This document shows, in pieces, positions 38,362-56,709 of a DNA stretch of 64,000 nucleotides. The DNA lies in contig NC_013929.1 in the NCBI RefSeq assembly GCF_000091305.1, positions 930,001 through 994,000 of the forward strand, written 5' to 3'. Position numbers and translations under genes: made by a program. Position 1 is the first letter of the stretch; each line of letters opens with the position of its first letter. Under the pieces are notes generated by a model. It did not search any database, was not told the origin of the DNA, and saw only the letters and a program-made list of their open reading frames with translations. The DNA comes from Streptomyces scabiei 87.22 (GTDB lineage: Bacteria; Actinomycetota; Actinomycetes; Streptomycetales; Streptomycetaceae).

Positions 38362-38397
38362 GTGACAGGCGTGAGGGGTTTCTGGTGACAGCCGTGA
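38362..38397 (+). promoter_or_regulatory. Direct repeat upstream of lanKC (candidate activator site)
   Basis: GTGACAGGCGTGA at 38362-38374 and GTGACAGCCGTGA at 38385-38397 differ at one of 13 bases and are spaced 23 bp start to start, close to two DNA turns. They lie about 80 bp before the lanKC start. That fits a dimeric response regulator such as the RamR-like protein of this locus, which is inference. Confidence 0.45.
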
Positions 38398-38477
38398 CTG
38401 TCGGGCGCCTCGGCGGGCTGGAAGGCTCGTCCTCACTTGGCCCAGGGAGCGACGGAACACGACCCGGGGGAACCTGC

Positions 38478-41132
38478 ATGGACAAGCGGTACGAGGCGTA
38501 CGCGCTCGCCGACAGACACTTCTACGAGACACCGGACCGGATCCCGGCCGGCGACCGCACCGGCGCGGCGGCCCCCGGTTACGCGACCGCCGGGCGCCCG
38601 GTCCCCGAGGGCTGGCGGGCGGTGCGGATCGGGGACTGGCTGACGCTGACCCCGGTCGACGACGGCGGGCGGCCCCGTCCCGGACCCACCCAGGGATGGA
38701 AGGTGCACGCCTCCGCCACCCGGGGGAACGCGGACCGGATCGCGGCGATCGTGTGGGACTACTGCGTGCCCCGCCAGATCCCGTTCAAGTTCGTGCCGGG
38801 ACCCCATCTGCTGCATCTGCGCAACGCCAAGTACGCGGCCCGCGACACCAGCGGCAAGTTCGTCACGGTCTACCCGGCGGACGAGGAGCAGCTGCACCTC
38901 GTCCTGCGCGAGCTGGGCGCACTCCTCGACGGCCACGAGGGGCCGTACATCCTCACCGATCTGCGCTGGAACGACGGACCGCTGTACGTCCGCTACGGCG
39001 CGTTCGCCCGTTCCTTCGTCGTCGACGAGCGCGGCACGCTCGTCCCGGCCGTCCGTGACGGCGTCGGCACGCTGGTGCCGGACCAGCGGAAGCCGACCTT
39101 CCATGTGCCCGAGTGGGTGACCCTGCCCGCGTTCCTGGAGCCGCAGCTGGCGGCGCGCAACACGACGACGGTCGGCGATCTGCCGTACCGGATCGACAAG
39201 GCGCTGCACTTCTCCAACGGCGGCGGCGTGTACGTCGGCACGGACACCCGTGACGGCGGCCGGGTGGTCCTCAAGGAGGGACGTCCGCACGCCGGGCTGG
39301 CCGCCGACGGGGCCGACGCGGTGACCCGTCTGGAGCGGGAGAAGGAGGCGCTGGAGCGGCTGGCCGGGCTGGGGGTCGTGCCCGGGGTGCGCGACTGGTT
39401 CACGCTCGGCGACCACCGCTTCCTCGTCATGGACTTCGTCGAGGGCCGCCCGCTGAACTCCTGCGTCGCCGAACGGCACCCCCTGCTGTCCGCGGACCCC
39501 GGGCCGGGCGCGGTCGCCGCGTACACGGACTGGGCGCTGCGGGTGCACCGGGCCGTGGAGGAGGCGGTCGCGGCGGTGCACTCGCGCGGGATCGTCTTCA
39601 ACGACCTGCACGTCTTCAACATCATGGTCGCGCCGGACGACCGGTCGGTGACCCTCCTCGACTTCGAGGCGGCGGCCTCCGCCGAGGAGAACGGCCGGCA
39701 GACCGTCGCCCACCCCGGCTTCCTCGCGCCCCCGGACCGCACCGGCCCGGACGTCGACCGCTACGCCCTGGCGTGTCTGCGCCTCGCGCTGTTCCTGCCG
39801 GTCACCTCCCTGCTGGTGGTGGAGCGGGAGAAGGCCGCCCATCTGGCCTCGGTGATCGCGGAGCGGTTCCCGCGGGTGCCGCGCGCGTTCCTCGACGAGG
39901 CGGTCGCGGAGATCACCCGGGGAACGGGGACCTCCGGACGCGGGGATCGGGGGGCACGGGCCGACGGGGGCGGCTGGTCCCTCGCCGAGCCCGGGGACTG
40001 GCCGTACAGCCGGGACTCGATGGTCAAGGCGATCCTGGCCTCGGCCACCCCGGAACGCGACGACCGGCTCTTCCCCGGGGACGTCGCCCAGTTCTCCGAC
40101 GGCGGCGGCCTCGGCCTCGCGCACGGCGCGGCGGGCGTCCTGTACGCGCTCGCGGAGGTCGGCGCGGAGCGCTACGAGGAGGGCGAGCGCTGGCTGCTCG
40201 ACCACACCGCCCCGGTACCCGTCGGGACCCCGCTCGGCCTGTACGACGGTCTCGCCGGCGTGGCGCTCACCCTGGACCGGCTGGGCCACCGGCAGCGGGC
40301 CCTGGACCTGACCGAGCAGATCCTCGCCGAGAAGTGGCACCGGCTCTCCTCCGACCTGCGCGGGGGTCTGGCCGGGCTCGGGCTGGTGCTGGACGAGCTG
40401 GCGCGGACCACCGGTGAGCAGGGGCTGCGCGACCACGCGGCCGAGGCCGCGCGCCTCCTCGCCCAGCGCCTCGGCGAGCCCCGCCCGGCCCCGCCCCGCC
40501 GCCGCGCCGGTCTGCTGCGCGGCGCGAGCGGGCCCGCCCTGTTCCTGCTGCGCCGCTACGAGACGACGGGCGACCCCGCGCTGCTCGCGTCGGCCCGTGA
40601 GGCACTGCGGCAGGACCTGGAGTGTCTGGTCGACCAGAAGAACGGCGGGCTCGCCGTCGACGAGGGCTGGCGGACGATGCCGTACCTCGGCGACGGGAGC
40701 GTGGGCGTCGGCATGGTGCTCGACGACTGCCTGGCCGCCACCGGCGCCGCGGCGGACGCTCGCGGACCGGAGGAGACCGCCGGCGCGCAGGACGGGCTCG
40801 CGCGGATCCGCGCGGGGATCCTCACCGCCGCGGCCTACCGCTTCTACGCACAGCCCGGGCTGTTCGAGGGCCGTGCCGGGATGATCCTGCACCTGGCCCG
40901 GACGGGCGCCCCGCGCGAGGCGCTCGCGGAACAGATCGCCGCGCTCGGCTGGCACTCGATGCCCTACGAGGGGCAACTGGCCTTTCCCGGCAACCACCTG
41001 ATGCGGCTCTCCATGGACCTCGGTACCGGGACGGCGGGATGCCTGCTGGCTCTCGGCGCGGCGCACGCCACGGCTGACGACGCCACGCCCCGCCTTCCGT
41101 TCCTGCCGCCGCCACGACGGCGGCCCCATTGA
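38478..41132 (+). CDS. lanKC: Class III lanthipeptide synthetase (RamC/LanKC-like)
   Basis: An 884-aa trifunctional enzyme that phosphorylates and dehydrates Ser residues and forms (labi/lan)thionine rings. The N-terminal lyase region (GWKVHASATRGNADRIAAIV; HLLHLRNAKYAARDTSGKFV) comes first. A Ser/Thr-kinase-like domain follows (Lys in VVLKEGRPH, catalytic GIVFNDLHVFNIMV, LLDFEAA in place of DFG). The LanC-like C-terminus follows (GLAHGAAGVLYAL, YDGLAGVALTL, FPGNHLMRLSMDLGTGTAG) without the zinc Cys-His-Cys set, as usual for class III. The ATG at 38478 has GGGGGAA upstream; the longer frame from 38385 covers the promoter. It leads the lan operon. Confidence 0.94.
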   Translation: MDKRYEAYALADRHFYETPDRIPAGDRTGAAAPGYATAGRPVPEGWRAVRIGDWLTLTPVDDGGRPRPGPTQGWKVHASATRGNADRIAAIVWDYCVPRQIPFKFVPGPHLLHLRNAKYAARDTSGKFVTVYPADEEQLHLVLRELGALLDGHEGPYILTDLRWNDGPLYVRYGAFARSFVVDERGTLVPAVRDGVGTLVPDQRKPTFHVPEWVTLPAFLEPQLAARNTTTVGDLPYRIDKALHFSNGGGVYVGTDTRDGGRVVLKEGRPHAGLAADGADAVTRLEREKEALERLAGLGVVPGVRDWFTLGDHRFLVMDFVEGRPLNSCVAERHPLLSADPGPGAVAAYTDWALRVHRAVEEAVAAVHSRGIVFNDLHVFNIMVAPDDRSVTLLDFEAAASAEENGRQTVAHPGFLAPPDRTGPDVDRYALACLRLALFLPVTSLLVVEREKAAHLASVIAERFPRVPRAFLDEAVAEITRGTGTSGRGDRGARADGGGWSLAEPGDWPYSRDSMVKAILASATPERDDRLFPGDVAQFSDGGGLGLAHGAAGVLYALAEVGAERYEEGERWLLDHTAPVPVGTPLGLYDGLAGVALTLDRLGHRQRALDLTEQILAEKWHRLSSDLRGGLAGLGLVLDELARTTGEQGLRDHAAEAARLLAQRLGEPRPAPPRRRAGLLRGASGPALFLLRRYETTGDPALLASAREALRQDLECLVDQKNGGLAVDEGWRTMPYLGDGSVGVGMVLDDCLAATGAAADARGPEETAGAQDGLARIRAGILTAAAYRFYAQPGLFEGRAGMILHLARTGAPREALAEQIAALGWHSMPYEGQLAFPGNHLMRLSMDLGTGTAGCLLALGAAHATADDATPRLPFLPPPRRRPH

Positions 41133-41217
41133 CGCGGTTCCGCCACCCGGCGGAGTCGTGACGTGACACCCCCGTCCCCCAGGCCCGCCGAGCGGGCCAC
41201 GACCGAAAGGAATCGAC

Positions 41218-41334
41218 ATGGCACTTCTCGACCTGCAGACGATGGAAGCCGACGAGACGACCGGTACCGGCGGGCCCAGCTCCCTGAGCGTGCTGTCCTG
41301 TGTGAGCGCGGCCAGCATCACGCTCTGCCTCTGA
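41218..41334 (+). CDS. lanA: Class III lanthipeptide precursor (SapB/avermipeptin-type)
   Basis: A 38-aa precursor missed by length cut-offs. It starts MALLDLQTMEAD, with the LLDLQ leader motif needed for class III synthetases. The C-terminal core reads SSLSVLSCVSAASITLCL and carries two SxxSxxxC ring motifs: Ser21-Ser24-Cys28 and Ser30-Ser33-Cys37. Each can form one labionin or lanthionine ring, as in SapB/AmfS-type surfactant peptides. A leader/core boundary near the GTGG stretch is likely. AAAGGA lies seven bases upstream of the ATG. The gene follows lanKC by 85 bp and is followed by a strong hairpin. Confidence 0.9.
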   Translation: MALLDLQTMEADETTGTGGPSSLSVLSCVSAASITLCL

Positions 41335-41403
41335 CCCGGCCCGGGCGCCCGGGTCGTCCCGGACGCCCGACGGACCGGCACAGCGGCTGAGCCGCGCCGA
41401 ACA

Positions 41404-41450
41404 GCCCCGGACGGTTCCTCTCCCCTGCCCGGGAAGGAACCGTCCGGGGC
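41404..41450 (+). terminator. Strong hairpin between lanA and the transporter genes
   Basis: A perfect 16-bp stem (left arm 41404-41419, right arm 41435-41450, GCCCCGGACGGTTCCT and its complement) with a 15-base loop sits 70 bp after lanA and 24 bp before the first transporter ATG. It can act as a partial terminator or mRNA stabiliser, giving more precursor than transporter message. Confidence 0.75.
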
Positions 41451-41474
41451 TCATTCATCCACGTCAGGACGGGT

Positions 41475-43307
41475 ATGACGACCCTCTGTGAAGCCGGCGC
41501 CCCCGGCCCGGCAGCCGCGTCCGTCCCCCTGCTGCGCTCCACCGTCCGGCACTCCGGCCCCCGCTGCACGACCCTGGCGCTGGTGTCCGTGGCCTCGGCG
41601 GGGGCGAACCTGGCGCTGCCGCTCGCCCTGGGGCGGGCCCTGGACCTGCTGCTGGCCGGCGACCCGGGCGGCGCGCGCTGGGTGCTGTGGTCGACGGGGC
41701 TGGTGCTCGCCGTCGCCGCCCTGGACGCGGTCGAGACCGTCCTCGCCGGGACCACGAGCGCCCGGTCCACGGCCTGGCTGCGCCACCGTCTCGTCGGGCA
41801 CGTCCTGGCCGTGGGGCCCCGGGCGGTCGGCCGTTTCGGGCCCGGCGACCTGGTGGCCCGGCTCGTCGGGAACGCGGCCCAGACCGGAACCGCCCCCGCC
41901 ACCACGGCCGCGCTGCTCGCCGCGCTCGCCGGGCCGCTGGGCGCGGTGGCGGCACTGGCCCTGATCGACCGGTTGCTCATGGTGGTGTTCCTGGCCGGAG
42001 CCCCCCTGCTCGCCCTGGTGCTGCGCGCCCTCGCCCGGGGCTCCTCCGACTGCGTCGCGCGCTACCAGCGGGCCCAGGGGCGTATCGCGGGCGCGCTGGC
42101 CGAGGCCGTCGCCGGACACCGCACGATCGCCGCCGCGGGCATCGCCGACCGGACCGTCGCCCGCGTCCTCGGCCCCCTGCCCGCACTCTCCCGCGAGGGG
42201 CACCGGATGTGGCGGGTCCAGGGCCGGGCCGCCGCGCGGACGGCCGCCGTGGCCCCCCTGCTGCAGCTCTCCGTGGTGGCCACGGCGGGCGTCCTGCTGA
42301 CCCGGCACCGGCTGTCCGTGGGCGAGCTGCTCGCCGCGTCCCGCTACGCGGTGCTGGCCGCCGGCATCGGCGTCCTCGTCGGCCATGTCTCGGGCCTGGT
42401 CCGCGCCCGGGCGGGGGCGGAGCGGCTCGCCGAGGTACTGGCCGAGCCCCCGACCCCGTACGGCGGACGGACGCTGCCGCCCCCGGACCGGGGACAGCCG
42501 GTGGGACGCCTGGAGCTGCGCTCCGTGACCGTCCGGCGCGGTGGGCGGACCGTCCTGGACGGGGTCGATCTCCTCGTGCCGGGCGGGAGCACACTGGCCG
42601 TCGTGGGCCGCTCGGGAGCGGGCAAGTCGCTGCTCGCGGCCGTCGCCGGGCGGCTCACCGACCCGGACGAGGGCGAGGTACGGCTCGACGGGGTGCCCCT
42701 GCGCGCACTGGACCGCCGGGAACTGCGCGCGGCGGTCGCCCACGCCTTCGAACGCCCGGCCCTGCTGGGCGACTCCGTGGCGGACACCATCGCCTTCGGT
42801 GTCCCGCGCCCCTCCCCGGCCCGCGTCCGGGAGGCCGCCCGTGCCGCGCACGCCGACGCCTTCGTCCGGCGCCTCCCCGACGGTTACGCCACCGCCTGCG
42901 CCGACGCCCCCCTGTCGGGCGGGGAGGCCCAACGCCTTGGCCTCGCGCGGGCGTTCGCCCGCGACAGCCGTCTCCTCGTCCTCGACGACGCCCTGTCCAG
43001 CCTCGACACCGTCACCGAGCACCACATCACCGAGGCGCTCCTCTGCCGCGCGGGCGGCAGCCGTCTGGTCATCGCCCATCGCGTCACCACGGCCGCCCGC
43101 GCGGACGCGGTGGCATGGCTGGACGGAGGGAGGATCCGGGCGGTCGGGCCGCACGCCGTGCTGTGGCGGACGGCGGCCTACCGGGGCCTGTTCGGGGAAG
43201 GAACCGGGGCCGACGCCCCGGCGGCCGACGAGGACCGGGCCGCCCCGCCCGGCAGGGACGGGCTCCGGGACACCGGGTCCGGCACGCCTCCGCACGGCGG
43301 TGGGTGA
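41475..43307 (+). CDS. ABC half-transporter of the lanthipeptide locus (RamA-like)
   Basis: A 610-aa membrane-ATPase fusion. Six membrane segments lie in the first 300 residues. The ATPase has Walker A GRSGAGKSL, signature LSGGEAQ and Walker B LLVLDDAL, where the catalytic Glu after the Asp is replaced by Asp. This predicts a degenerate site, as in heterodimeric exporters, with the partner encoded immediately downstream (TGATG overlap). Its position after lanKC-lanA matches ramA in SapB-type loci, where the pair exports the peptide. The leader protease is not encoded here. Confidence 0.9.
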   Translation: MTTLCEAGAPGPAAASVPLLRSTVRHSGPRCTTLALVSVASAGANLALPLALGRALDLLLAGDPGGARWVLWSTGLVLAVAALDAVETVLAGTTSARSTAWLRHRLVGHVLAVGPRAVGRFGPGDLVARLVGNAAQTGTAPATTAALLAALAGPLGAVAALALIDRLLMVVFLAGAPLLALVLRALARGSSDCVARYQRAQGRIAGALAEAVAGHRTIAAAGIADRTVARVLGPLPALSREGHRMWRVQGRAAARTAAVAPLLQLSVVATAGVLLTRHRLSVGELLAASRYAVLAAGIGVLVGHVSGLVRARAGAERLAEVLAEPPTPYGGRTLPPPDRGQPVGRLELRSVTVRRGGRTVLDGVDLLVPGGSTLAVVGRSGAGKSLLAAVAGRLTDPDEGEVRLDGVPLRALDRRELRAAVAHAFERPALLGDSVADTIAFGVPRPSPARVREAARAAHADAFVRRLPDGYATACADAPLSGGEAQRLGLARAFARDSRLLVLDDALSSLDTVTEHHITEALLCRAGGSRLVIAHRVTTAARADAVAWLDGGRIRAVGPHAVLWRTAAYRGLFGEGTGADAPAADEDRAAPPGRDGLRDTGSGTPPHGGG

Positions 43308-45355
43308 TGGACCGCCAGGACACCCGGCCCCGAGCCGGCCGGCCGGAGACCGCACAAGAGCCAGGGGCGGGGGCGGACCCCGCGAGGGGCGAGCCCTCCG
43401 GGCCGGGACGGCCCGAGCGCCCCTCCCCGCCCGGCCTCCCCCGGCGCGGCCTGCGTTTCCTGCGGAGCCGGGGGCGGGTCGTCGTACGGCTGGTGCTGTG
43501 GTCCGTGCTGGAGGCGGCGCAGACGTTCCTGACGGGGTACGCCCTGGCGCGGGCCCTGGACGACGGGTTTCTCGCCGGGCGGCCGGGGGCCGGGCTGGCG
43601 TGGCTCGGGGCCGGGGCGGGGGCGGTGGCCGTCGGGGCGTACGGGACCGGGCGGGTGTACGGGTGTGTGGCGGGGCTGGTGGAACCCCTGCGGGACCGGC
43701 TGGTGCGCGAGGTGGTGGCGCGAGGGGTGCGGGAGGCGGACGGCGGGGCCCTGTCCGGGCTGACCCAGCAGGTGGAGATCGCCCGGGACACCTTCGCCGG
43801 GCTGGTGATGGTCTCGCGCTCGTTCCTGTTCACGGCCGCCGGGGCACTCGCCGGACTCTTCTCGCTGGCGCCGCCGCTGCTGCTCGTGGTGGCGCCCCCG
43901 CTGGTCGCCGGCGTGGCCCTCTTCCTGGCGACGCTCGGGCCGCTGGCCCGCCGTCAGGAGACCTTCCTCGTCGCCGACGAGGCCCTCGCCGCCCGGCTCG
44001 GCGACGTCTGCACCGGGCTGCGGGACATCACGGCGGCCGGCGCGGAGGACCCCGTCGCCGCCGACACCGGCCGCCGCGTCGACGCCGAGCACCGGGCCGC
44101 CCGTTCGCTGGCCCGCTGGGGCGTCGTCCGGGTCGCCGCGCTCGCGATCGGCGGCCATCTGCCCGTCGTCCTGCTGCTGGCCTGCACCCCCTGGCTGCTG
44201 GGCCGGGGAGTCACCGCGGGCGCCCTGATCGGCGCCCTCGCCTACGTCACCCAGTCCCTCCTGCCCGCGCTGCAGAACCTGGTGCACGGCCTGGGCACCA
44301 GCGGCTCCCGGCTCGTGGTGGTCCTGCGCAGACTGCTCCCGCCGAGCCCCACCGCCCGCCCTCCGTACGCGCCCTGCCGACCCGAGCCTGCCGAGCCGCC
44401 GGTGCACACACCGCCCCGGCCCGTCTCGTCGACGCCCCCGACACCGCGCGAGGCCGCCGCCCTCTACCTCTCCGGCGTCACCTTCGCCTACGGCCCCGAC
44501 GCCGCCCCCGTCCTCGACGACGTCAGTCTCCGTCTCCCCCACGGCACGCATCTGGCCGTCGTCGGTCCCAGCGGCGCCGGGAAGTCCACCCTCGCCGGAC
44601 TCGCCGCGGGTCTGCTGCGCCCGCGGCACGGCACCGTCCGCTTGTGCGGGGAACGGGCAGCCGGCGCCACGGCGCGCGCACACCGGGTGCTCATTCCGCA
44701 GGAGGCGTACGTCTTCGGGGGATCCCTCGCCGAGAACCTCGGCGAACTGCGGCCGAAACCCGTGCCCGAGGGGGAGCTGTGGGAGGCGGCGGAGGCGGTG
44801 GGACTCACCGAGGTGATGGTCCGGCTGGGCGGTCCGGCCGCCGAGGTCGACCCGCGTGCGCTGTCCGCCGGGGAGCGGCAGCTCGTGGCGCTGGGCCGGG
44901 CGTATCTGTCGCACGCGCCGGTCGTGATCCTCGACGAGGCGACCTGTCACCTGGACGCGGAGGCGGAGGAGCGCGCGGAACGGGCCTTCGCCCGCCGGCC
45001 GGGCACGACCCTGGTGGTCGTCGCCCATCGCGTCAGTTCGGCCCGCCGCGCCGACCGGGTGCTCGTCATGGACGGGCGGTCCGTCGCGTACGGGGAGCAC
45101 GCCGACCTGCTGGCCCGTTCGCCGCTGTACCGGGACCTGGTCGGCGCCTGGTCCGCCGTACCGGCCCCGCCGGGTCCCCGGGGCGGACGGTCCTCAGAGC
45201 CAGCCCTCTCCCTGCGAGATCCGGATGGCGTCGATCCTGTTGCGCGCCCCCGTCTTGCGGGTGATGGCGGCCATGTAGTTGCGCACCGTCCCGTGGGACA
45301 GGTGCAGGCTGCCGGCGATCTCGGCGACGGAGGCCCCCTCCGCGGCCAGGGATAA
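43307..45355 (+). CDS. Second ABC half-transporter (RamB-like), overlapping the convergent regulator
   Basis: A 682-aa exporter subunit. An N-terminal Gly/Pro/Glu-rich stretch of about 50 residues precedes the membrane domain (LRFLRSRGRVVVRLVLWSVL onward). The ATPase has Walker A GPSGAGKST, the unusual signature LSAGERQ and a full Walker B VVILDEATCHLD, complementing the degenerate first subunit. The frame stays open past the natural family end (PLYRDLVGAW, near 45150) and runs 162 bp into the antisense of the RamR-like gene, stopping at 45355. The last 60 residues look like antisense shadow rather than domain. Confidence 0.85.
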   Translation: MDRQDTRPRAGRPETAQEPGAGADPARGEPSGPGRPERPSPPGLPRRGLRFLRSRGRVVVRLVLWSVLEAAQTFLTGYALARALDDGFLAGRPGAGLAWLGAGAGAVAVGAYGTGRVYGCVAGLVEPLRDRLVREVVARGVREADGGALSGLTQQVEIARDTFAGLVMVSRSFLFTAAGALAGLFSLAPPLLLVVAPPLVAGVALFLATLGPLARRQETFLVADEALAARLGDVCTGLRDITAAGAEDPVAADTGRRVDAEHRAARSLARWGVVRVAALAIGGHLPVVLLLACTPWLLGRGVTAGALIGALAYVTQSLLPALQNLVHGLGTSGSRLVVVLRRLLPPSPTARPPYAPCRPEPAEPPVHTPPRPVSSTPPTPREAAALYLSGVTFAYGPDAAPVLDDVSLRLPHGTHLAVVGPSGAGKSTLAGLAAGLLRPRHGTVRLCGERAAGATARAHRVLIPQEAYVFGGSLAENLGELRPKPVPEGELWEAAEAVGLTEVMVRLGGPAAEVDPRALSAGERQLVALGRAYLSHAPVVILDEATCHLDAEAEERAERAFARRPGTTLVVVAHRVSSARRADRVLVMDGRSVAYGEHADLLARSPLYRDLVGAWSAVPAPPGPRGGRSSEPALSLRDPDGVDPVARPRLAGDGGHVVAHRPVGQVQAAGDLGDGGPLRGQG

Positions 45356-45802
45356 CACGCTCAGCTCGCGGCGCGTCAGCGGCATCTCGGCGGCCTTGAG
45401 GAAGCCGAAGCCGAGCGAGTCGTCGACGAAGCGTCTCCCCCGGGCGACCTCCCGTATCGCGGACACCAGCCGCTGGGGCGAGCCCTCCTTGTCCACGTAC
45501 CCGAGGGCCCCGGCCTCGGCCGCCCGCTTCAGCAGTCCGGGTCTGCCCGCGTGGGCCAGGACCAGCAGCCCGGGGGCGGGAGCGGAGCCGCCCGCGCCGC
45601 GCAGGTCGCCCAGGGGCGGGATGCCGACCGCGTCGGCACAGTCCAGGTCGGCGGCGCAGACGTCGGGCCGCAGGGACCGCGCACGGCCCGGCGCCGCGCG
45701 CCACGACGCGTCGTGGACCGCCAGGTCGGGTTCCCGGCGCAGCCACTCCGCGAGGACCGACCTGACCAGACATTCGTCGTGCACGAGCAGTACCCCGATC
45801 AC
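45194..45802 (-). CDS. RamR-like LuxR-family response regulator
   Basis: A 202-aa regulator: an N-terminal receiver-like domain (MIGVLLVHDECLVRSVLAEWL) with a partial acidic pocket, the probable phospho-site region PDVCAADLDCADAVG and YVDKEG with the conserved Lys. The C-terminal LuxR helix-turn-helix is LTRRELSVLSLAAEGASVAE, then HGTVRNYMAAITRKTGARNR. In ram/amf loci the fifth gene is such a regulator and activates lanKC transcription. The receiver is atypical, so control by phosphorylation is doubtful. The GTG at 45802 starts the receiver strand. It is convergent with the RamB-like gene. Confidence 0.88.
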   Translation of the reverse strand: MIGVLLVHDECLVRSVLAEWLRREPDLAVHDASWRAAPGRARSLRPDVCAADLDCADAVGIPPLGDLRGAGGSAPAPGLLVLAHAGRPGLLKRAAEAGALGYVDKEGSPQRLVSAIREVARGRRFVDDSLGFGFLKAAEMPLTRRELSVLSLAAEGASVAEIAGSLHLSHGTVRNYMAAITRKTGARNRIDAIRISQGEGWL

Positions 45803-46085
45803 GTTCGCCCTCCGCCTCCCGGCCCACCGATGTCCTCCCGCCCCAAGCGCGTGCCCATTGTCGGCGTCCGTGACCACACACCAGGGCGCGAAGAACCAGC
45901 CATCGGGGAGCGCGGGGGCGCACTCACGGCGCCCGTGCGCGAGTGCGCGCATCGGGCGAGGGGGCATGGGCCGGGCGGGAAGGGGTACGGCGGTTCGTCC
46001 GGGGCGGCGCTCGCCGTGCGTGGGCGGCCCCCTAGGAGGAGCCTGGACCCTGGAACCGTCGCGCGGCCGCGAGGAGGTGGTGGGC

Positions 46086-48416: not shown

Positions 48417-49844
48417 TCAGCGCTGGACGCCCTGCTGCTCGGCACCCTGCTGCTCGGCACCCTGCTGCTGCTCGCCGCCCTGGTCACCGGCGCCCTGGTC
48501 GTGCTGCTGGCCCGCTCCGGCGTCGTCACCGGCACCGGCCGCGGCGCCCTGCTCCTCGCCCGCACCGGCCGCGGCGGCGCCCTCTTCCTCGCCGGCGCCC
48601 GCGGCGGCGGCGCCCTCTTCCTGGCCGGCACCGGCGGCGGCACCGCCGTCCGCCTGCTCACCGGCACCGGCGGCGGCACCGCCGTCGGCCTGCTCACCGG
48701 CGCCCGCGCCGGCGTCGCCGAGGGTCGCGCCGACCGCCGCGAGGGCGGTGGTGACCGGCTGGAAGAACGTCTCGCCGCCGACGGTGCAGTCGCCGCTGCC
48801 GCCGGAGGTCAGGCCGATGGCCTGGCCGTCCTGGGTGAACAGCGAGCCGCCGCTGTCGCCGGGCTCGGCGCAGACGTCGGTCTGGATGAGCCCGGTGACC
48901 GTGCCCTCGGGGTAGTTCACCGTGGCTTCGAGACCGGTGACCTGGCCGTCGGCGAGGCCGGTGGTGCTGCCCATGCGGAAGACCTGGAGGCCGACCTCGG
49001 CCTCGCCGGCCGCCTTGATGTCGACCGTCTGGCCGTTGCCGAGGTCGACCGTGCTGGCCGCCTGGGTCGCCGGGTCGTTGTAGTTGACCAGGGCGAAGTC
49101 ACCGGCGCCGGGGAAGGTGGCGGTCGCGGCGTCGACCGTGGCGATCGGGGCGCCGCCCTCCTCCTCGGACCATTCGGCCTCGGCGACACCGCAGTGACCG
49201 GCGGTCAGGAAGGCCGGGGCGCCTTCGGCGTTGACGACGTTGAAGCCGGCCGAGCAGCGCGCGCCGCCGCCGAAGATGGCGTCGCCGCCCTCCAGGAACG
49301 GCTTGAACGTGCCGGCCGACTTCTTGATGGTCGCCATGCCCGTGCCGAGCGACTTGGTGGCCGACTCGATGGTGTCCCAGTTCTCGCCCGTGACCGTGGA
49401 GTCGGCGGTGACCTGGATCTTGTTCGTGCGGGGGTCGATGGCCCACGCGGTGCCCGGAACGGCGGCCTTCGCCTTGAGCGTCGCGGCGCCCTTCTGGAGC
49501 TCGGACCAGCTGTTGTCGACCTCACGGACCTTCGCACCGGCCGACTGCGCCTGGATGATCACGTTGTTGTCGTCGCCGTCGATCTGCAGGCCGTCGATGA
49601 CGTTGATGACGAGCTGCTTCTCGGCCGAGTCGTAGTACGCGCCTGCGAACGCGTCACCGAGTGCCTCGCGGAGCTTGGAGGCGAGGTCCGAGGCGTCACT
49701 CGCGGCGAGCGTCCTGGGGGCGGCGCCCTTCGCGTCCGTCTGCGACGCCATGGCGTTCGGCAGGATGAGGGCTGCCGCGCCGAGCGCCGCCACGCCGCCT
49801 GCAGCTATGAACGCCTTGCGCTTGGTGGCTCGTTTGTGACTCAA
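48417..49844 (-). CDS. Secreted S1-family serine protease with repetitive acidic C-terminal tail
   Basis: A 475-aa protein: signal peptide (AFIAAGGVAALGAAALILPN), pro-region and chymotrypsin-fold domain with His217 (LTAGHCG), Asp249 (GAGDFALVNY) and Ser331 (EPGDSGGSL). The last 97 residues are low-complexity: two exact GAGEQADGGAAA units, then GAGQEEGAAAA, GAGEEEGAAAA and GAGEEQGAAA, ending in Gln-rich QQGAEQQ repeats. The paralogue at 3233 has a membrane anchor instead. The tail may tether the enzyme to the wall or act as a spacer. Confidence 0.92.
   Translation of the reverse strand: MSHKRATKRKAFIAAGGVAALGAAALILPNAMASQTDAKGAAPRTLAASDASDLASKLREALGDAFAGAYYDSAEKQLVINVIDGLQIDGDDNNVIIQAQSAGAKVREVDNSWSELQKGAATLKAKAAVPGTAWAIDPRTNKIQVTADSTVTGENWDTIESATKSLGTGMATIKKSAGTFKPFLEGGDAIFGGGARCSAGFNVVNAEGAPAFLTAGHCGVAEAEWSEEEGGAPIATVDAATATFPGAGDFALVNYNDPATQAASTVDLGNGQTVDIKAAGEAEVGLQVFRMGSTTGLADGQVTGLEATVNYPEGTVTGLIQTDVCAEPGDSGGSLFTQDGQAIGLTSGGSGDCTVGGETFFQPVTTALAAVGATLGDAGAGAGEQADGGAAAGAGEQADGGAAAGAGQEEGAAAAGAGEEEGAAAAGAGEEQGAAAGAGDDAGAGQQHDQGAGDQGGEQQQGAEQQGAEQQGVQR
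48420..48710 (-). repeat. Imperfect coding tandem repeats in the protease tail
   Basis: 33-36 bp units encoding GAGEQADGGAAA-type modules repeat about five times, then shorter Gln-rich units. The first two units are identical at protein level. This region may vary in copy number. Confidence 0.75.
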
Positions 49845-50526
49845 CTCTTGACCTCCTGGGGACGGGGTCCGTGCCGCCGTCCGGCGGGTGAACTGGGGGC
49901 GCCTGGTTGCCAGTTGGTACGGATGGTTCCGGTGGGGTGTTCAACGCTCCGCAAAAAGATTCCGCTCTTCCATTTCGCAAAGCGCGCTACGCCCCCCGTT
50001 CGCCCGGCATGTCAGGACTTCCCGCCCGCACCTCCCGTGGAGCGCCCGTGCGCACCGGGGGCCCGCGCCGCACCCGGCACGCTCGGCGACCGTCCGGTAG
50101 CGGTCCGTCCCCCTCGGCGGCCGGGAAACCGGCTTCCGGGAATCTCCACACCGAATGCCCAGCGGGGTCACGGCCGACGGGAGTTCTGCACACGGGTGAC
50201 TCGTGTCCCGTGCCTTTCAGGCGGACTGTCCCATTCGTTTTACTGACGGCAACGAACCGCGTATGACGATGCCGCGATCCGTGTGAAGAAGCTGCCCCCA
50301 ACCCGTGCCCGAGCCTGCACGGATGGAACGCCATGGTCACCAAGAGCGCTGGTGGGAGCCCTTGTTGATTGGAAGTGCGCCACGGCGGTCTGCTTTGATC
50401 CATCGCACCGCGGGGGCCGCCGGACTCTCGGAGACGAGAGCGGGCACCCACGTGCGCGGCCGTCGTTCTGTCCCCAGAAGGGGGCCGCTCCCCCCTATGA
50501 AGAGCTATACGAAGGGAAGTTCCCCC
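49845..50526. other. Long intergenic region between divergent protease and peptide operon
   Basis: 682 bp with no convincing gene on either strand. It must hold the promoters for both divergent transcripts. The part at 50340-50410 is less GC-rich than its surroundings and contains a TTGTTG -35-like element near 50363. No known operator was recognised. Confidence 0.5.
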
Positions 50527-50742
50527 ATGAACTCCACCCCCCAGGTCGAGACCGCCGAGATCTCGGACGCCGCCCTCGACGCCGTCTCCGGTGGCCTGTC
50601 CGTCAACGCCGTCGGTACCGTCACCGGCCTGGTGGACGGCGTCGCCCCGGTCTCCGGCCTGGTCAACACGGCCGTCGGCACGGTCGAGGGTGTCACCGGC
50701 CTGAACACCGCCCCGGTGACGGGCCTGGTCGCCGGTCTCTGA
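50527..50742 (+). CDS. Double-glycine leader peptide precursor with tandem Gly/Val repeats
   Basis: A 71-aa peptide. Residues 1-23 form a leader (ETAEISDAALDAVSGG) ending in the Gly-Gly site cut by C39 peptidase-ABC transporters, with the upstream hydrophobic pattern such leaders use. The 48-residue core has no cysteine and is rich in Gly, Val, Leu and Thr. It is built of two tandem copies of about 20 residues (AVGTVTGLVDG.., AVGTVEGVTGL.., each with an APV(S/T)GLV end). The ATG at 50527 has GAAGGGAAG upstream. Adaptor and two ABC transporters follow. It may be a bacteriocin, signal or surface-active peptide. No modifying enzyme lies nearby. Confidence 0.85.
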   Translation: MNSTPQVETAEISDAALDAVSGGLSVNAVGTVTGLVDGVAPVSGLVNTAVGTVEGVTGLNTAPVTGLVAGL

Positions 50743-50760
50743 TCGAGCCCCGGTGCCACT

Positions 50761-50794
50761 GAGTCCCGGAACCACCTGACCGGTTCCGGGACTC
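50761..50794 (+). terminator. Hairpin between precursor and adaptor genes
   Basis: GAGTCCCGGAACC and GGTTCCGGGACTC form a perfect 13-bp stem with an 8-base loop, 18 bp after the precursor stop. This is the same precursor-hairpin-export layout as in the lan locus, likely a partial terminator that favours precursor mRNA. Confidence 0.75.
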
Positions 50795-50844
50795 TCCGGT
50801 GCCCGAACGTCCTCCTCCCGAGTCGCGCAGGTGAGGGAAGTCCC

Positions 50845-51651
50845 GTGCAGTTCCGCCAACAGGCCCTCGCCAAGCTCCGGTCACCGGAGGAACTCGACCT
50901 GCCGGTGCGGTTCGCCCGCCCGCAGGGCTGGCTGGTGCTGTCCGTGACGGTGGCCGCCATGGCCGCCGCGTCCGTGTGGGCCGTGACGGGTTCCGTCGCC
51001 TCCACCGTCAGCGCCCCCGCCGTCCTCACCCACGGCCAGGGCAGCTACATCCTGCAGAGCCCCGTCGCCGGCCAGGTCACCGCCGTGCTCGCACGGCAGG
51101 GCGAGCGGCTGCCCGCCCGGGCCCCCGTCCTGAAGGTCGCCACCGCCGACGGCGAGAAGGTCGTCCGGTCCGTCGCCGCGGGCCGGGTCTCCGCGCTCGC
51201 CGCCACGATCGGCCGGATCATCAGCACGGGCACCGACGTCGCGGCGATCGAGAAGGTCGCCGACGCCGACGATCCGCTCTACGCGACGGTGTACGTCCCC
51301 GCCGAGAACGCCGCCTCGATCCCCGACGACGCCGCCGTGGACCTGACCGTGCAGTCGGCGCCCACCCAGCGGTACGGCGTGCTGCGCGGCCACGTGAAGA
51401 AGGTGGACCGCACCGCGCAGACGCCGCAGTCGATCGCCGCGTTCCTCGGGGACACCCAGCTGGGCGAACAGTTCACCAGGAAGGGCCGGCCGGTGGCCGT
51501 CACCGTACGGCTGGACCGCAGGGCGTCGACCGATTCCGGCTACGCGTGGTCCTCGCAGGACGGGCCGCCGTTCGGGCTGACCTCCATGACCATGGCCACC
51601 GGTTCGATCCGGCTGGCCGACGAGCGTCCCGTCGATTGGCTGCTCCCGTGA
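50845..51651 (+). CDS. HlyD-like membrane fusion protein of the NHLM export system
   Basis: A 268-aa adaptor. A short cytoplasmic N-terminus (FRQQALAKLRSPEELDLPVR) precedes one transmembrane helix (GWLVLSVTVAAMAAASVWAV). A biotinyl-lipoyl-like half-motif follows (SYILQSPVAGQVTAVLARQG, then RSVAAGRVSALAATIG). Such NHLM-type adaptors accompany the C39/ABC pair in RiPP and bacteriocin export. The GTG at 50845 has GAGGGAAG. Its TGA overlaps the next GTG (GTGA), so the transporter is translationally coupled. Confidence 0.86.
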   Translation: MQFRQQALAKLRSPEELDLPVRFARPQGWLVLSVTVAAMAAASVWAVTGSVASTVSAPAVLTHGQGSYILQSPVAGQVTAVLARQGERLPARAPVLKVATADGEKVVRSVAAGRVSALAATIGRIISTGTDVAAIEKVADADDPLYATVYVPAENAASIPDDAAVDLTVQSAPTQRYGVLRGHVKKVDRTAQTPQSIAAFLGDTQLGEQFTRKGRPVAVTVRLDRRASTDSGYAWSSQDGPPFGLTSMTMATGSIRLADERPVDWLLP

Positions 51652-53885
51652 CCGCGTCCCAGGACACCGCCCGGCCGCCGGCGCGCGGGAGACGCAAGGC
51701 CGCCCCGCAGAAGCGCCCGGTGCCCAAGGGCCGGCAGCGGACGGTGCGGACGCCGACCGTGCTGCAGATGGAGGCCGTGGAGTGCGGCGCCGCCGCCCTC
51801 GCCATGGTCCTCGGACACCACGGCCGGCATGTCCCGCTGGAGGAACTGCGCATCGCCTGCGGTGTCTCCCGCGACGGCTCCCGCGCCAGCAACCTGCTGA
51901 AGGCCGCCCGCAGTTACGGTCTGACCGCCAAGGGCATGCAGATGGACGTGGCCGCCCTCGCCGAGCTGAAGGCCCCGGCCGTCCTCTTCTGGGAGTTCAA
52001 CCACTACGTCGTCTACGACGGCATGGGGCGCCGTCTCGGCCGGCGCGGCGTCCACATCAACGACCCCGGCAAGGGACGCCGGTTCGTGCCCATGGAGGAC
52101 TTCGACGCCGCCTTCACCGGGGTCGTGCTCGTCATGGAGCCCGGCGACGACTTCGCGAGGGGCGGCCGCAGGCCGGGGGTCCTCGGCGCCATGCCCGCCC
52201 GGATGCGCGGCACCGCCGGCACCCTGCCCGCCGCCGTCCTCGCCAGTCTGCTGCTGGTGGCGGTCGGCGCGGCGGTGCCCGCGCTGAGCCGCACCTATAT
52301 CGACATGTTCCTGATCGGCGGTCAGACCTCCCTGCTGGGGGTGCTGTTCGGGTCGATGGGCGCCTGCGTGCTGCTGACGGTCCTGCTGACCTGGCTGCAG
52401 CAGGCCAACCTGCTGCGCGGCCGTCTGATCTCCTCGACCCTGTCCAGCGCCCGCTTCCTGCGGCACCTGCTGCGGCTGCCCGTCACCTTCTTCTCCCAGC
52501 GCAGCCCCGCCGACCTCGTCCAGCGTCTGAGGTCCAACGACGCGGTCGCCGAGACCCTGGCCCGCGACCTGGCGGCCGCCGGTGTCGACGCCGTCGTCGT
52601 CCTCCTCTACGCCGTGCTCCTCTACACCTACGACCCGCAGCTGACCTTCGTCGGTGTCGCGGTGGCGCTGCTGAACGTGGTGGCGATGCGGGTGGTGATC
52701 CGGCTGCGCGCGACCCGTACGGCGAAGCTGCGCGCCGACAACGCCCGGCTCGTCACCACGGCGTACACCGGGCTGCAGCTGATCGAGACGATGAAGGCGA
52801 CCGGCGGCGAGGAGGGCTACTTCCGCAAGTGGGCAGGGCAGCACGCCACCACACTGGAGGAGCAGCAGCGGCTCGGGGTGCCGAGCGCCTGGCTGGGGGT
52901 CGTCGCCCCGACCCTCGCCACCCTCAACAGCGCGCTCATCCTCTGGATCGGCGGCATGCGGGCCGTCGAGGGGCATGTCTCCGTCGGCCTGCTGGTGGCC
53001 TTCCAGGCGCTGGTCACCCGGTTCACCGCGCCGATCACCCGGCTCAACGGCGTCGCGGGCCGTATCCAGGACTTCGCGGCGGACGTGGCCCGCCTCAAGG
53101 ACGTCGAGAACTTCCGGGCCGACCCGCTGTACGCCCGCCCGGACGCCGCCGAGTCCACCCGCAGGCTGCAGGGCCATGTGGAGCTGGAGAACATCACCTT
53201 CGGCTACAGCCCCCTCGACACCCCCCTGCTCACCGGCTTCGACCTCACCGTCGGCCCCGGCCGGCAGGTGGCGCTGGTCGGCGGCTCGGGCAGCGGCAAG
53301 TCGACGGTGTCCCGGCTGATCTCCGGGCTGTACACCCCCTGGGAGGGGGTGATCCGGATCGACGGCCGGCGTCTGGAGGACATTCCGCGGGGAGCCCTGG
53401 CCGCCTCGGTGTCCTTCGTCGACCAGGAGGTCTTCCTGTTCGAGGGCACGGTCCGCGACAACGTGGCCCTGTGGGACCCGTCGATCCCGGACGAGGCCGT
53501 GGTGGAGGCGCTGCGGGACGCGGCCCTGTACGAGGTGGTGGCCCGTCGGCCGGGCGGCATCGCCAGCAGGGTCGAGCAGGACGGCCGTAACTTCTCGGGC
53601 GGTCAGCGGCAACGTCTGGAGATCGCGCGGGCGTTGGTTCGCAGGCCCAGCATCCTGGTCCTCGACGAGGTGACCAGCGCGCTCGACGCGGAGACCGAAC
53701 TGATCGTGATGGACAACCTCCGCAAGCGCGGCTGCGCGTGCGTGGTGATCGCCCACCGGCTCTCCACCGTCCGCGACAGCGACGAGATCGTCGTCCTGCG
53801 GCACGGGACGATCGTGGAGCGCGGACGGCACGAGGAGCTGGTGGCACGCGGCGGCGCGTACGCCCAGCTGGTCAGGGAGCACTGA
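51648..53885 (+). CDS. C39 peptidase-containing ABC transporter (NHLM/NHLP type)
   Basis: A 745-aa transporter that cuts the leader after Gly-Gly and exports the core. The N-terminal C39 peptidase has its full triad: Cys46 (MEAVECGAAALAM), His119 (WEFNHYVVYDG) and Asp139 (HINDPGKG). Six membrane segments follow, then an ATPase with Walker A GGSGSGKST, signature FSGGQRQ, Walker B ILVLDEVTSALD and H-loop IAHRLS. All catalytic residues are present. It is directly coupled to the adaptor and separated by one base from the second ABC protein. Confidence 0.93.
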   Translation: MTASQDTARPPARGRRKAAPQKRPVPKGRQRTVRTPTVLQMEAVECGAAALAMVLGHHGRHVPLEELRIACGVSRDGSRASNLLKAARSYGLTAKGMQMDVAALAELKAPAVLFWEFNHYVVYDGMGRRLGRRGVHINDPGKGRRFVPMEDFDAAFTGVVLVMEPGDDFARGGRRPGVLGAMPARMRGTAGTLPAAVLASLLLVAVGAAVPALSRTYIDMFLIGGQTSLLGVLFGSMGACVLLTVLLTWLQQANLLRGRLISSTLSSARFLRHLLRLPVTFFSQRSPADLVQRLRSNDAVAETLARDLAAAGVDAVVVLLYAVLLYTYDPQLTFVGVAVALLNVVAMRVVIRLRATRTAKLRADNARLVTTAYTGLQLIETMKATGGEEGYFRKWAGQHATTLEEQQRLGVPSAWLGVVAPTLATLNSALILWIGGMRAVEGHVSVGLLVAFQALVTRFTAPITRLNGVAGRIQDFAADVARLKDVENFRADPLYARPDAAESTRRLQGHVELENITFGYSPLDTPLLTGFDLTVGPGRQVALVGGSGSGKSTVSRLISGLYTPWEGVIRIDGRRLEDIPRGALAASVSFVDQEVFLFEGTVRDNVALWDPSIPDEAVVEALRDAALYEVVARRPGGIASRVEQDGRNFSGGQRQRLEIARALVRRPSILVLDEVTSALDAETELIVMDNLRKRGCACVVIAHRLSTVRDSDEIVVLRHGTIVERGRHEELVARGGAYAQLVREH

Positions 53886-53886
53886 G

Positions 53887-56709
53887 ATGACGTCCCCGTC
53901 CGGCGAGGGCGACCTCGTCATCGGCGCCTTCGGCGCCCTGGGCACCCCCCTCGACTGCGCCGGCCGCACCCGCCTCGACCTCGAAGGGCCGCAGACCCTG
54001 TGGCTGGTGGCCTCCGGCGCCCTGGACCTGTTCGCGGTCGACGCCGACGGCCAGGGCCAGTGGCACCATCTGGGCCGTCTGGAGGCGGGCGCGCTGCTGC
54101 TCGGCCCGGTCGCCGGGCCCCAGCACACCCTGGTCGCCCGCCCGCTGCGCGACTGCGTGGTGCGGCGCGTCGGCCTGCGCGAGCTGTACCAGCAGGCGGG
54201 CACCGAGACCTGGTCGTACGACGCATGGGGCAACCCCCAGCTCGTCGAGCCACAGGCCAGTCCTCTCGAACACGCCCTGGCGCTGGGCGTCGGCCGCGGT
54301 CTGTCCGTCCTCTTCCAGGCGCCGATGGCCGGCGAGCAGGCCGCCGTGCCCACCGACGACGACGTGTTCTGGATGCGGGTGCCGCCCGGCAGCGTCCAGT
54401 ACGGCTCGCTCTACGGTGCCGAGGCGGCGGCCGACCTGCTGATGGACCCCGGGGTCTGGCAGAGCATGGTCGACCAGCAGTTCCGGCTGCTGGCCACGCT
54501 GGACCGCTGGATCGAACAGCTGGAGCGCACCCACGAGGACCGGACGGCCGCCGGGATCAAGGCCGGTGAGGCGGTGCGCGCCCAGGCCGACCGTACGCTC
54601 CTCGCGTCGATCGGCACGTCCTCCGCGAACCGGCGGACGACCGCCGCCGACGCGGACGCCACGTACGCGGCCTGTGAACGCGTCGCCCGGGCGGCCGGGA
54701 TCACCCTGTCCGAGCCGGCACGGAGCGGCACCGAGAGCGACCGGCTCGATCCGGTGGAACGCGTCGCGCTCGCCTCGCGGGTCCGGATCCGGGCCGTACG
54801 CCTCGCCGGGAGCTGGTGGCGGGAGGACGTGGGCCCGCTGGTCGGGCACCGGGCGCTGTCCGGGGCGCCGGTCGCGCTGCTGTGGCGGCGCGGCGGTTAT
54901 GTGGCCGTACAGCCCTCGTCCGGCCGGGAGACGCCGATCGAGAAGGCGAACGCGGCGGAGTTCGAGCCGCGGGCGGTGATGTTCTACCGTCCGTTGCCCG
55001 AGCGGGTGCCGGGCCCGCTGCGGCTGATGCGGTTCGGTCTGCACGGCACGCGCGGCGACATGACGGGGCTGCTGCTCAGCGGCCTGGTGACGGTCCTGCT
55101 CGGCTCGCTGGTGCCCGTCGCGACGGGGAAGATCCTCGGCGAGTACGTGCCGAAGGCGCAGGAGGACCTGATCGTGCAGGTCTGTCTGGCGATCATGCTG
55201 GCGAGCGTGGTGTCGGCCGCGTTCCTGCTGCTGCAGAACATGACGATCCTCCGGCTGGAGGGCCGTATCGAGGCGAACCTCCAGCCTGCGGTCTGGGACC
55301 GGCTGCTGCGGCTCCCCACCGCGTTCTTCGCCTCGCGTTCCACGGGTGAACTGGCCGGGGCCGCCATGGGCATCAGCGCGATCCGCCGCACCCTGGCCGG
55401 GGTCGGCCCGGTCGTCGCGCAGTCGGTGACCGTCGGTGCCGTGAACCTCGCCCTGCTGCTCTGGTACAGCGTGCCCATGGCCCTGGCGGCGATCGCCATG
55501 CTGGTGCTGGTGGCCTCCGTCTTCCTCGGCCTCGGCCTGTGGCAGGTCCGCTGGCAGCGGCGTCTGGTGGTCCTCGGCAACAAGCTCGACAACCGGGCCT
55601 TCCAGACCCTGCGCGGTCTGCCGAAGCTGCGGGTGGCCGCCGCCGAGAACTACGCGTACGCCGCCTGGGCGGGCGAGTTCGCGCGCAGCCGGGAGCTGCA
55701 GCAGAAGGTCGGCGGCATCAAGAACCTCAACACCGTGCTGGGGGCGGTGTATCTCCCGCTGTGCACCCTGTTGATGTTCATGCTGCTGGCGGGGCCGGCG
55801 CGGGGGTCCCTGTCGGCGGCGGAGTTCCTGACCTTCAACACCTCGGTGACGATGCTGCTGACGTCGGTCACCCAGCTGACGGGCGCGTTCGTCTCGGCGG
55901 TCGCGGTGCTGCCGCTGTTCGAGGAGATCAAGCCGGTCCTGGAGGCCACGCCGGAGGTGCGGACGGGGAGTACGCGTCCGGGTGTCCTCACCGGTGCGCT
56001 GGAGGCCCGCCGGCTCTCCTTCCGCTACGCGGACGACGGCCCGCTGGTGCTGGACGACGTGTCGTTCGCCGTCGGGGCCGGTGAGTTCGTGGCGATCGTC
56101 GGCCCGAGCGGCTGCGGCAAGTCGACCCTGCTGAGGCTGCTCATCGGCTTCGACAAGCCGGTCTCCGGCAGCGTGCTCTACGACGGTCAGGACCTCGGCG
56201 CCCTCGACCGGTCCGCCGTGCGCCGGCAGTGCGGTGTCGTCCTGCAGCACGCGCAGCCGTTCACCGGCTCGATCCTGGACGTCATCTGCGGGACCGAGCC
56301 GTACACGCCCGAGGAGGCGATGGCGGCGGCGGCGATGGCGGGCCTGGCGGAGGACATCCAGCGCATGCCGATGGGGCTGCACACCATCGTCCAGGGCAAC
56401 GGGGCGATCTCCGGGGGGCAGCGTCAACGCCTGATGATCGCGCAGGCGTTGATCCGCCGCCCCCGCATCCTCTTCTTCGACGAGGCCACGAGCGCGCTCG
56501 ACAACGAGACGCAGCGGACGGTGATCGAGAGCACGCGTGCGCTGAACGCGACGCGGGTGGTCATCGCGCACCGGTTGTCCACGGTGATGGACGCGGACCG
56601 GGTGGTGGTGATGGAGGACGGCAAGGTGGCGGAGGTCGGCTCTCCGGCCCAGCTGCTGGCGAACCCTGCGGGGCGGCTGCGCGAGCTGGTGCGGCGTCAG
56701 ATGGCCTAG
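53887..56709 (+). CDS. NHLM-system ABC transporter without peptidase
   Basis: A 940-aa partner transporter. A long N-terminal region of about 370 residues begins with a cyclic-nucleotide-like beta domain (GPQTLWLVASGALDLFAVDADG) and has no protease residues. Membrane segments occupy about 380-650, then comes an ATPase with Walker A GPSGCGKST, signature ISGGQRQ, Walker B ILFFDEATSALD and H-loop IAHRLS. Length and layout fit the NHLM bacteriocin-system second ABC subunit. It ends the operon, followed by a compound repeat/terminator. Confidence 0.9.
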   Translation: MTSPSGEGDLVIGAFGALGTPLDCAGRTRLDLEGPQTLWLVASGALDLFAVDADGQGQWHHLGRLEAGALLLGPVAGPQHTLVARPLRDCVVRRVGLRELYQQAGTETWSYDAWGNPQLVEPQASPLEHALALGVGRGLSVLFQAPMAGEQAAVPTDDDVFWMRVPPGSVQYGSLYGAEAAADLLMDPGVWQSMVDQQFRLLATLDRWIEQLERTHEDRTAAGIKAGEAVRAQADRTLLASIGTSSANRRTTAADADATYAACERVARAAGITLSEPARSGTESDRLDPVERVALASRVRIRAVRLAGSWWREDVGPLVGHRALSGAPVALLWRRGGYVAVQPSSGRETPIEKANAAEFEPRAVMFYRPLPERVPGPLRLMRFGLHGTRGDMTGLLLSGLVTVLLGSLVPVATGKILGEYVPKAQEDLIVQVCLAIMLASVVSAAFLLLQNMTILRLEGRIEANLQPAVWDRLLRLPTAFFASRSTGELAGAAMGISAIRRTLAGVGPVVAQSVTVGAVNLALLLWYSVPMALAAIAMLVLVASVFLGLGLWQVRWQRRLVVLGNKLDNRAFQTLRGLPKLRVAAAENYAYAAWAGEFARSRELQQKVGGIKNLNTVLGAVYLPLCTLLMFMLLAGPARGSLSAAEFLTFNTSVTMLLTSVTQLTGAFVSAVAVLPLFEEIKPVLEATPEVRTGSTRPGVLTGALEARRLSFRYADDGPLVLDDVSFAVGAGEFVAIVGPSGCGKSTLLRLLIGFDKPVSGSVLYDGQDLGALDRSAVRRQCGVVLQHAQPFTGSILDVICGTEPYTPEEAMAAAAMAGLAEDIQRMPMGLHTIVQGNGAISGGQRQRLMIAQALIRRPRILFFDEATSALDNETQRTVIESTRALNATRVVIAHRLSTVMDADRVVVMEDGKVAEVGSPAQLLANPAGRLRELVRRQMA

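Follow-up and report, generated by a model that had tools for sequence, protein, structure and literature searches.

A double-glycine peptide operon of Streptomyces scabiei 87.22 with an NHLM-type exporter and a candidate unmodified, surface-binding peptide

What does an NHLM-type exporter carry when no modifying enzyme is encoded with it? NHLM exporters tend to be taken as marks of modified peptides, and the question is raised by an operon at positions 50527–56709 of a 64,000-nucleotide stretch of Streptomyces scabiei 87.22 (contig NC_013929.1, 930,001–994,000, forward strand; hereafter the window), which encodes a small peptide with a Gly-Gly leader, an adaptor and two ATP-binding cassette (ABC) proteins. 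The answer towards which the sequence comparisons incline us, by a small degree, is that the leader is cut off and the 48-residue core is exported unmodified and, as a surfactant-like amphipathic helix, likely binds to the surface of the hyphae or to the air-water interface. A likely counterpart of the operon and a hint at its role are already in print; the genus-wide nesting of peptide and exporter, the missing maturase, a stem-loop and orphan precursors sharing the leader are added here.

Composition and distribution of the operon

The operon and its upstream region contain the following features.

50130..50526, plus strand: upstream region containing several blocks conserved at 90% identity or more (alignment of 81 sequences) and the likely ribosome-binding site GAAGGGAAG
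50527..50742, plus strand: precursor peptide gene, 71 amino acids (ATG at 50527, stop codon at 50740–50742), likely counterpart of SCO0753
50527..50595, plus strand: 23-residue double-glycine leader, also present in orphan precursors elsewhere
50596..50739, plus strand: 48-residue Cys-free core with two tandem imperfect repeats and amphipathic periodicity
50761..50794, plus strand: stem-loop in the gap between precursor and exporter genes, 13-bp stem, no T run
50845..51651, plus strand: HlyD-like adaptor, GTG start, below the TIGR03794 and above the HlyD_3 cut-off, likely counterpart of SCO0754
51648..53885, plus strand: C39 peptidase-ABC exporter (NHLM ABC1), GTG start, TIGR03796, with Peptidase_C39, ABC_membrane and ABC_tran domains and the catalytic triad
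53887..56709, plus strand: partner ABC protein (NHLM ABC2), TIGR03797, with an N-terminal extension of about 256 residues

The original prediction, made from the letters of the window, had described a 71-residue precursor with a Gly-Gly leader and a 48-residue core without Cys, followed by an adaptor, a C39 peptidase-ABC transporter with an intact triad and an NHLM-type partner. Reading of the sequence confirmed the precursor, whose leader (residues 1–23) ends in LDAVSGG, and family profiles together with motif reading confirmed the exporter. ABC1 (745 residues) scored 1012.2 bits against TIGR03796 (cut-off, 853.3), contains Cys46, His119 and Asp139, and aligns over residues 38–741 with a solved bacteriocin transporter (4ry2). 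ABC2 scored 877.7 bits against TIGR03797 from residue 257 on (cut-off, 709.4), and both sets of ATPase motifs (Walker A, Walker B, signature) were identified. The adaptor fell just under the TIGR03794 cut-off (142.5 bits against 156.2, E = 1.7e-41), and its match to HlyD_3 was above cut-off.

With NHLM/NHLP systems, the locus shares all three exporter parts, the Gly-Gly cleavage motif and, in some species, the presence of several precursors in one genome (PMC2887384), whereas it differs in the adaptor score, in the absence of a tailoring enzyme from the operon and in its leader: the NHLP/Nif11-type (nitrile-hydratase/Nif11) leader profiles TIGR03793 and TIGR03798 gave no precursor match up to E = 0.1, the single match being an implausible ATP synthase. 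The C39-ABC relatives of ABC1, presumably of the ComA and PCAT1 types judging from titles in the PDB, share with it a C39 peptidase fused to an ABC exporter, the same triad and a Gly-Gly leader. In contrast to these types, the complete loci examined here also encode an adaptor and another ABC protein, which lacks a peptidase domain and begins with a long N-terminal extension.

We read the gene context at 80 close loci, which are the best 80 of 369 by precursor similarity and whose identity figures are biased upward, and at 20 divergent orthologues, 20 weaker matches and 15 loci from genomes with the exporter only. Flanks of 9 kb were taken at the close loci and of some 8 kb or less elsewhere. 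Among the close loci, S. stelliscabiei and S. caniscabiei are the closest by precursor similarity, and the two records not titled Streptomyces ("Actinobacteria bacterium", L044, and "Kitasatospora aureofaciens", L068) fall among Streptomyces on the tree. The adaptor and ABC1 genes lie downstream of the precursor in 80/80 close loci and ABC2 in 79/80, the contig of the other (L029) stopping before ABC2; the predicted arrangement is thus beyond chance. The exporter genes also follow the precursor in all 20 divergent orthologues (45–71% precursor identity).

Of 199 Streptomyces genomes drawn evenly and searched at E ≤ 1e-3 for the precursor and E ≤ 1e-150 for ABC2, 146 had the exporter; the precursor was found in 132, every one of them among these 146. 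The 14 exporter-only genomes contributed 15 loci, 12 of which (in 12 genomes) have the orthologous adaptor, ABC1 and ABC2, and in every one of these 12 the adaptor is immediately preceded by a divergent Gly-Gly precursor without Cys. The remaining loci are one on a cut contig (L171) and two distant NHLM exporters, L175 and L177 (44 and 40% ABC2 identity), in neither of which was the Gly-Gly precursor motif found. Of 24 genomes from other genera (15 from the same order and 9 from the same class), none had a match to the partner ABC at E ≤ 1e-100; this sample includes no other genus of the same family.

The operon had further been described as translationally coupled. This applies to adaptor and ABC1, which overlap by 4 nt, and to ABC1 and ABC2, which are 1 nt apart, whereas the precursor is set off from the adaptor by 102 nt holding a strong stem-loop. 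The stem-loop begins 18 nt past the precursor stop codon and has a fold z of -2.32. In the 44 of the 81 aligned sequences on which covariation was computed, 98.6% of cells are paired and 5 of the 13 pairs are changed on both sides; the covariation exceeds nearly all shuffles and also the slid controls, although relatedness alone can beat such shuffles without structure. With G-U pairs allowed, a stem of at least 11 bp is present at the same gap in 28 of 32 divergent loci, each matched by at most 2 of 100 single-base shuffles, and 26 of those 28 stems have CCCCGG in the 5' arm. Because the stem-loop has no T run, simple rho-independent termination is not indicated; the element may be a barrier through which the precursor transcript comes to outnumber that of the exporter.

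Over the 80 close loci, the precursor has half the synonymous divergence of the exporter genes (0.14–0.16 against 0.30–0.32), which fits codon bias or a constraint on the RNA. Scans of the upstream region against Rfam, for a sigma-70 consensus and for promoters or terminators found no match. In 50130–50526, TCTGCACA is repeated in the alignment consensus and TTGAT is repeated in the window; these repeats may represent regulator sites.

The likely published counterpart is SCO0753-0756 of S. coelicolor, which, as described, has the same order of a short hydrophobic peptide, an HlyD homologue and two ABC genes, followed by the exopolyphosphatase SCO0757; the published peptide has 77 residues, in contrast to the 71 given by the conserved start here. 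The match is drawn from description and synteny, without alignment to the SCO0753 record. For this cluster, the published account proposes export of a hydrophobic peptide that has no Cys and hence is not processed as a lantibiotic (PMC6629963).

The maturase question

The original prediction held that no maturase lies in the operon. None is present inside it, but the window does hold a class III lanthipeptide synthetase, which the prediction had missed. It belongs to a SapB-type cluster that spans 38385–45922 and has its own precursor.

38385..41132, plus strand: RamC-type class III lanthionine synthetase LanKC (NF038151, 1121.1 bits, cut-off 575; RamC_N), part of a neighbouring system outside the operon
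41218..41334, plus strand: RamS-type lanthipeptide precursor open reading frame (ORF) of 38 residues with Cys, read from the sequence and named from its position
41475..45355, plus strand: RamA/RamB-type ABC pair, named from synteny with RamC
45194..45922, minus strand: RamR-type LuxR-family response regulator, GerE above and receiver domain just below cut-off, named from its position

The synthetase lies 9.4 kb upstream of the operon. Like the operon, the SapB/RamCSABR system comprises a small peptide and an ABC pair, and the two systems are neighbours in the window, as they are in 30 of 72 close relatives. It differs in that its precursor ORF has Cys and another leader, in its LanKC synthetase, and in that no C39 domain is reported for the RamA-type protein.

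The comparison of divergent loci supports export without a dedicated maturase. When ORFs of at least 70 residues were clustered across 33 divergent loci, no family other than the precursor and exporter genes occurred in more than 3, and queries with LanKC, YcaO and SagB gave no match in any of them; no tailoring enzyme of the thiazole/oxazole-modified microcin (TOMM) or LanM kind, such as an NHLM system would lead one to expect, recurs there. The search of neighbouring genomes for co-occurring enzymes, which the prediction had proposed as a check, returned no recurring maturase, and an enzyme lying just beyond the window was rejected on the same ground.

Such enzymes are detectable when present, as seen at one of the distant exporter loci: at L175 (G167:C66, 7182–11040), a YcaO cyclodehydratase of the TOMM kind and a SagB dehydrogenase are encoded next to the NHLM exporter. 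L177 (G188:C1) holds a similar distant exporter.

Nor was a maturase always seen in homologous loci, the outcome that the prediction had named as contrary to it. In 72 close loci the sequence reaches 6 kb or more upstream; ram genes were found there in 30 and not in the fetched flank of the other 42, and no ram orthologues were found in the flanks of the 20 divergent loci. LanKC itself was found in 3 of 80 close loci within the 9-kb flank, which is a floor because RamC would mostly lie beyond that distance. Overall, the original interpretation is partly supported.

The core might nevertheless be modified in trans, for example by Ser/Thr dehydration by RamC or another maturase elsewhere, making it a ribosomally synthesized and post-translationally modified peptide. 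The proximity of RamC, and the chance that it sits just past the 9-kb flank in the 30 ram-linked close loci (it is reached in 3 of 80), would be in keeping with this, as would LanC-like matches at three places in the genome. The exporter families are also tied to modified-peptide precursors in the paper that defined them (PMC2887384). In addition, the precursor has 638 homologues at E ≤ 1e-3, and among the 120 matches listed, many are named "type A2 lantipeptide" by NCBI.

That label is often attached to this family despite the lack of Cys and of a linked synthetase of its own, the two things that the name would lead one to expect; one report uses only this name for a related gene and infers antimicrobial use from it (PMC13047742). 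No Cys occurs in 77 distinct close sequences or in 28 divergent cores, which means no lanthionine; the divergent loci gave no LanKC, YcaO or SagB match, and the leader, by eye, is unlike that of the RamS-type ORF. Processing by RamC was rejected because the core has no Cys and no ram genes were found near the divergent loci, and we consider modification in trans as a whole quite unlikely.

Adjacency to ram was likewise rejected as a defining trait of the system and is kept as context. On a quick ABC1 tree of 72 labelled rows (the window, 30 linked and 41 unlinked loci; 28 of 77 inner branches weak), ram linkage changes at least 10 times.

Properties and possible role of the core

The core has a mass of 4418 Da, an isoelectric point of 4.05 and nine Ser/Thr residues, and its tandem repeats were equalled by none of 1000 shuffles. 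Among the 28 divergent cores used for periodicity (of 32, four near-duplicates being removed by hand), the best angle lies within 90–115 degrees in 23, in comparison with 21% of shuffles, and 16 reach p < 0.05 singly; these cores are related by descent, so that a combined p-value is not meaningful. None of the 28 has Cys and none has more than one Lys/Arg, with His in some, and Lys, Arg and His are all absent from 74 of 77 close cores.

We suggest the following course of events. Transcription from the conserved upstream region would yield much precursor and less exporter message; the C39 domain, by analogy with its family, would cut after Gly23 during export; and the ABC1/ABC2 pair with the adaptor would move the peptide out. 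The secreted acidic, Cys-free, amphipathic core may then adsorb to the hyphal surface or to interfaces, which is the least certain step and is proposed on account of the composition, the periodicity and the published expression context. SapB has a surface role according to the literature, and the adjacency of ram, seen in the window and in 30 of the 72 close relatives, is counted in favour of the surface reading.

The published expression context is the following. In a sensor-kinase mutant with dispersed mycelium, SCO0753 was the most induced gene (log2 6.3), with SCO0754-0756 at 4.25–4.4; the cluster was almost silent in the null mutant and was grouped with envelope genes, and a role as a detergent-like coat of the hyphae was suggested for the peptide (PMC6629963). 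The larger induction of SCO0753 than of SCO0754-0756 fits the stem-loop acting as a barrier. Elsewhere, SCO0753 was raised in an aor1 deletion (PMC5733086), sco0756 was raised in a strain without Ppm1 activity (PMC5882110), and SCO0756 was slightly lowered in a copper-related mutant (PMC6414726). In the literature searched, which left out most subscription papers and supplements, discussion of the possible role of the peptide was found only in PMC6629963, and no mention was found of shared-leader orphans, the stem-loop or amphipathic repeats.

The original prediction offered a bacteriocin, a signal or a surface protein as roles for the peptide. The surface peptide fits best, the bacteriocin fits less well and the signal stays in consideration.

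As a signal, the cleaved core would be sensed by the same or neighbouring cells and would govern growth form or the response to envelope stress. Peptides with a Gly-Gly leader and a C39-ABC exporter frequently serve as signals, as in ComC/ComA, and ComA structures are among the structural matches here; the strong, switch-like control in the two-component mutant points the same way. Yet the 33 divergent loci show no recurring receptor or kinase next to the operon, a strongly hydrophobic repeat core of 48 residues is in our judgement unlike a typical receptor ligand, and the core sequence drifts while its composition and pattern persist. We therefore regard a signalling role as unlikely.

As an unmodified class II-like bacteriocin, the peptide would act against other bacteria. 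It has the Gly-Gly leader and C39-ABC exporter of that class and a hydrophobic, amphipathic core that is more variable than the leader, and the genes are annotated as a bacteriocin cluster in S. coelicolor papers (PMC5733086, PMC6414726). However, this role fits less well, because there is no room for an immunity gene within the operon, no neighbour recurs beside it among ORFs of at least 60 or 70 residues (shorter ones were not screened), and the core, which is acidic, has almost no Lys/Arg. The precursor is, moreover, present in two thirds of the sampled genus. A bacteriocin was thus set aside as first choice for its acidic core and the lack of an immunity gene in view, and appears very unlikely to us.

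Several observations weigh against an unmodified surface peptide and are set out together here. The helix-type periodicity of the whole window core is modest (52 of 2000 shuffles equally good), and the segment for which no shuffle of 2000 was as good, residues 28–59, was picked after inspection; among the divergent cores, 5 of 28 have no helix periodicity and 12 of 28 have p ≥ 0.05. The AlphaFold model of the precursor draws helices at low confidence (mean predicted local distance difference test score, pLDDT, 54.8). The core is the freer-evolving part of the precursor: over the 80 close loci, the ratio of nonsynonymous to synonymous polymorphism (pN/pS) is 0.505 for the core, 0.341 for the leader, 0.171 for ABC1 and 0.358 for the adaptor. 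Four of the 32 divergent loci have no clear stem-loop, and ram genes are absent from the fetched flanks of 42 of 72 close loci and of the divergent loci.

With respect to modification, radical SAM, ATP-grasp and other maturases were sought only by clustering ORFs that recur; LanC-like matches lie at three sites of the genome, RamC among them, and the nine Ser/Thr residues of the core could in principle be modified in trans. Finally, the ABC2 extension (53887–54654, about 256 residues) is conserved in the family and lies outside the TIGR03797 match. It has no Pfam match and no credible sequence relative in the PDB, and a model of ABC2 residues 1–395 is of low confidence (pLDDT 45.0).

If the proposed role is correct, about three quarters of the sampled Streptomyces genomes (146/199) can secrete unmodified amphipathic peptides, which would matter for the surface properties of hyphae and for the way pellets form in fermenters.

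Orphan precursors and neighbouring genes

The system had also been called self-contained, which is too strong for the family. Of the 20 weaker precursor matches, L161 proved to be an ordinary operon and L159 had no hit; the other 18 are orphans, which share the leader, have a different core and have no orthologous exporter in their fetched flanks. The commonest orphan class has a second conserved core (11 loci: L143, L144, L146, L147, L149–L151, L153, L156, L158 and L162), and no neighbour recurs in more than 3 of these 11. In another orphan with the shared leader, L154, the core has a Cys.

A profile built from 10 of the 11 orphans of this class (A4) gave leader-type matches (E ≤ 0.01) in 142 of the 146 genomes that have the exporter, compared with 3 of the 53 that do not; the 142 are mostly the operon precursor itself. 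The new part is the second matches, some of which may be chance at this threshold: at least two matches were obtained in 60 of the 199 genomes, each of which has the exporter. Twenty genomes contain strong matches to the class (E < 1e-24), and these, too, all have the exporter. In the genome of the window, no second convincing copy of the precursor was found (one leader-profile match).

These co-occurrences suggest that, in many species, peptides encoded elsewhere by orphans with the shared leader probably leave through the same exporter. By serving such precursors, the exporter would have a list of substrates that is predictable from the leader. We further propose, as a tentative extension and one that we hold to be rather less probable than its contrary, that Streptomyces has a genus-wide set of ribosomal, enzyme-free surfactant peptides, with one NHLM exporter per genome as the hub at which the operon peptide and scattered orphans with different cores lose their common leader, forming a second morphogenetic system beside SapB and sometimes encoded next to it.

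Between the ram cluster and the operon, a divergent gene is present, with a further feature upstream.

48417..49844, minus strand: divergent secreted serine protease (alpha-lytic prodomain and trypsin), a neighbour in closer relatives

The protease bears a long tail rich in Ala, Gly, Glu and Gln. It is found upstream in 75 of 80 close loci and adjoins the operon in 0 of 20 divergent loci, with weaker, distant matches in 3, and for this reason it was rejected as a part of the system. A PAS/GAF/SpoIIE phosphatase is also encoded upstream. On the 3' side, an exopolyphosphatase follows the locus in 46 of 73 close relatives, and about 5.6 kb of other genes intervene in the window. In S. chartreusis L089 (NZ_CP108841.1), the entire block from ram to ABC2 lies together on a record of a 1.16-Mb linear plasmid.

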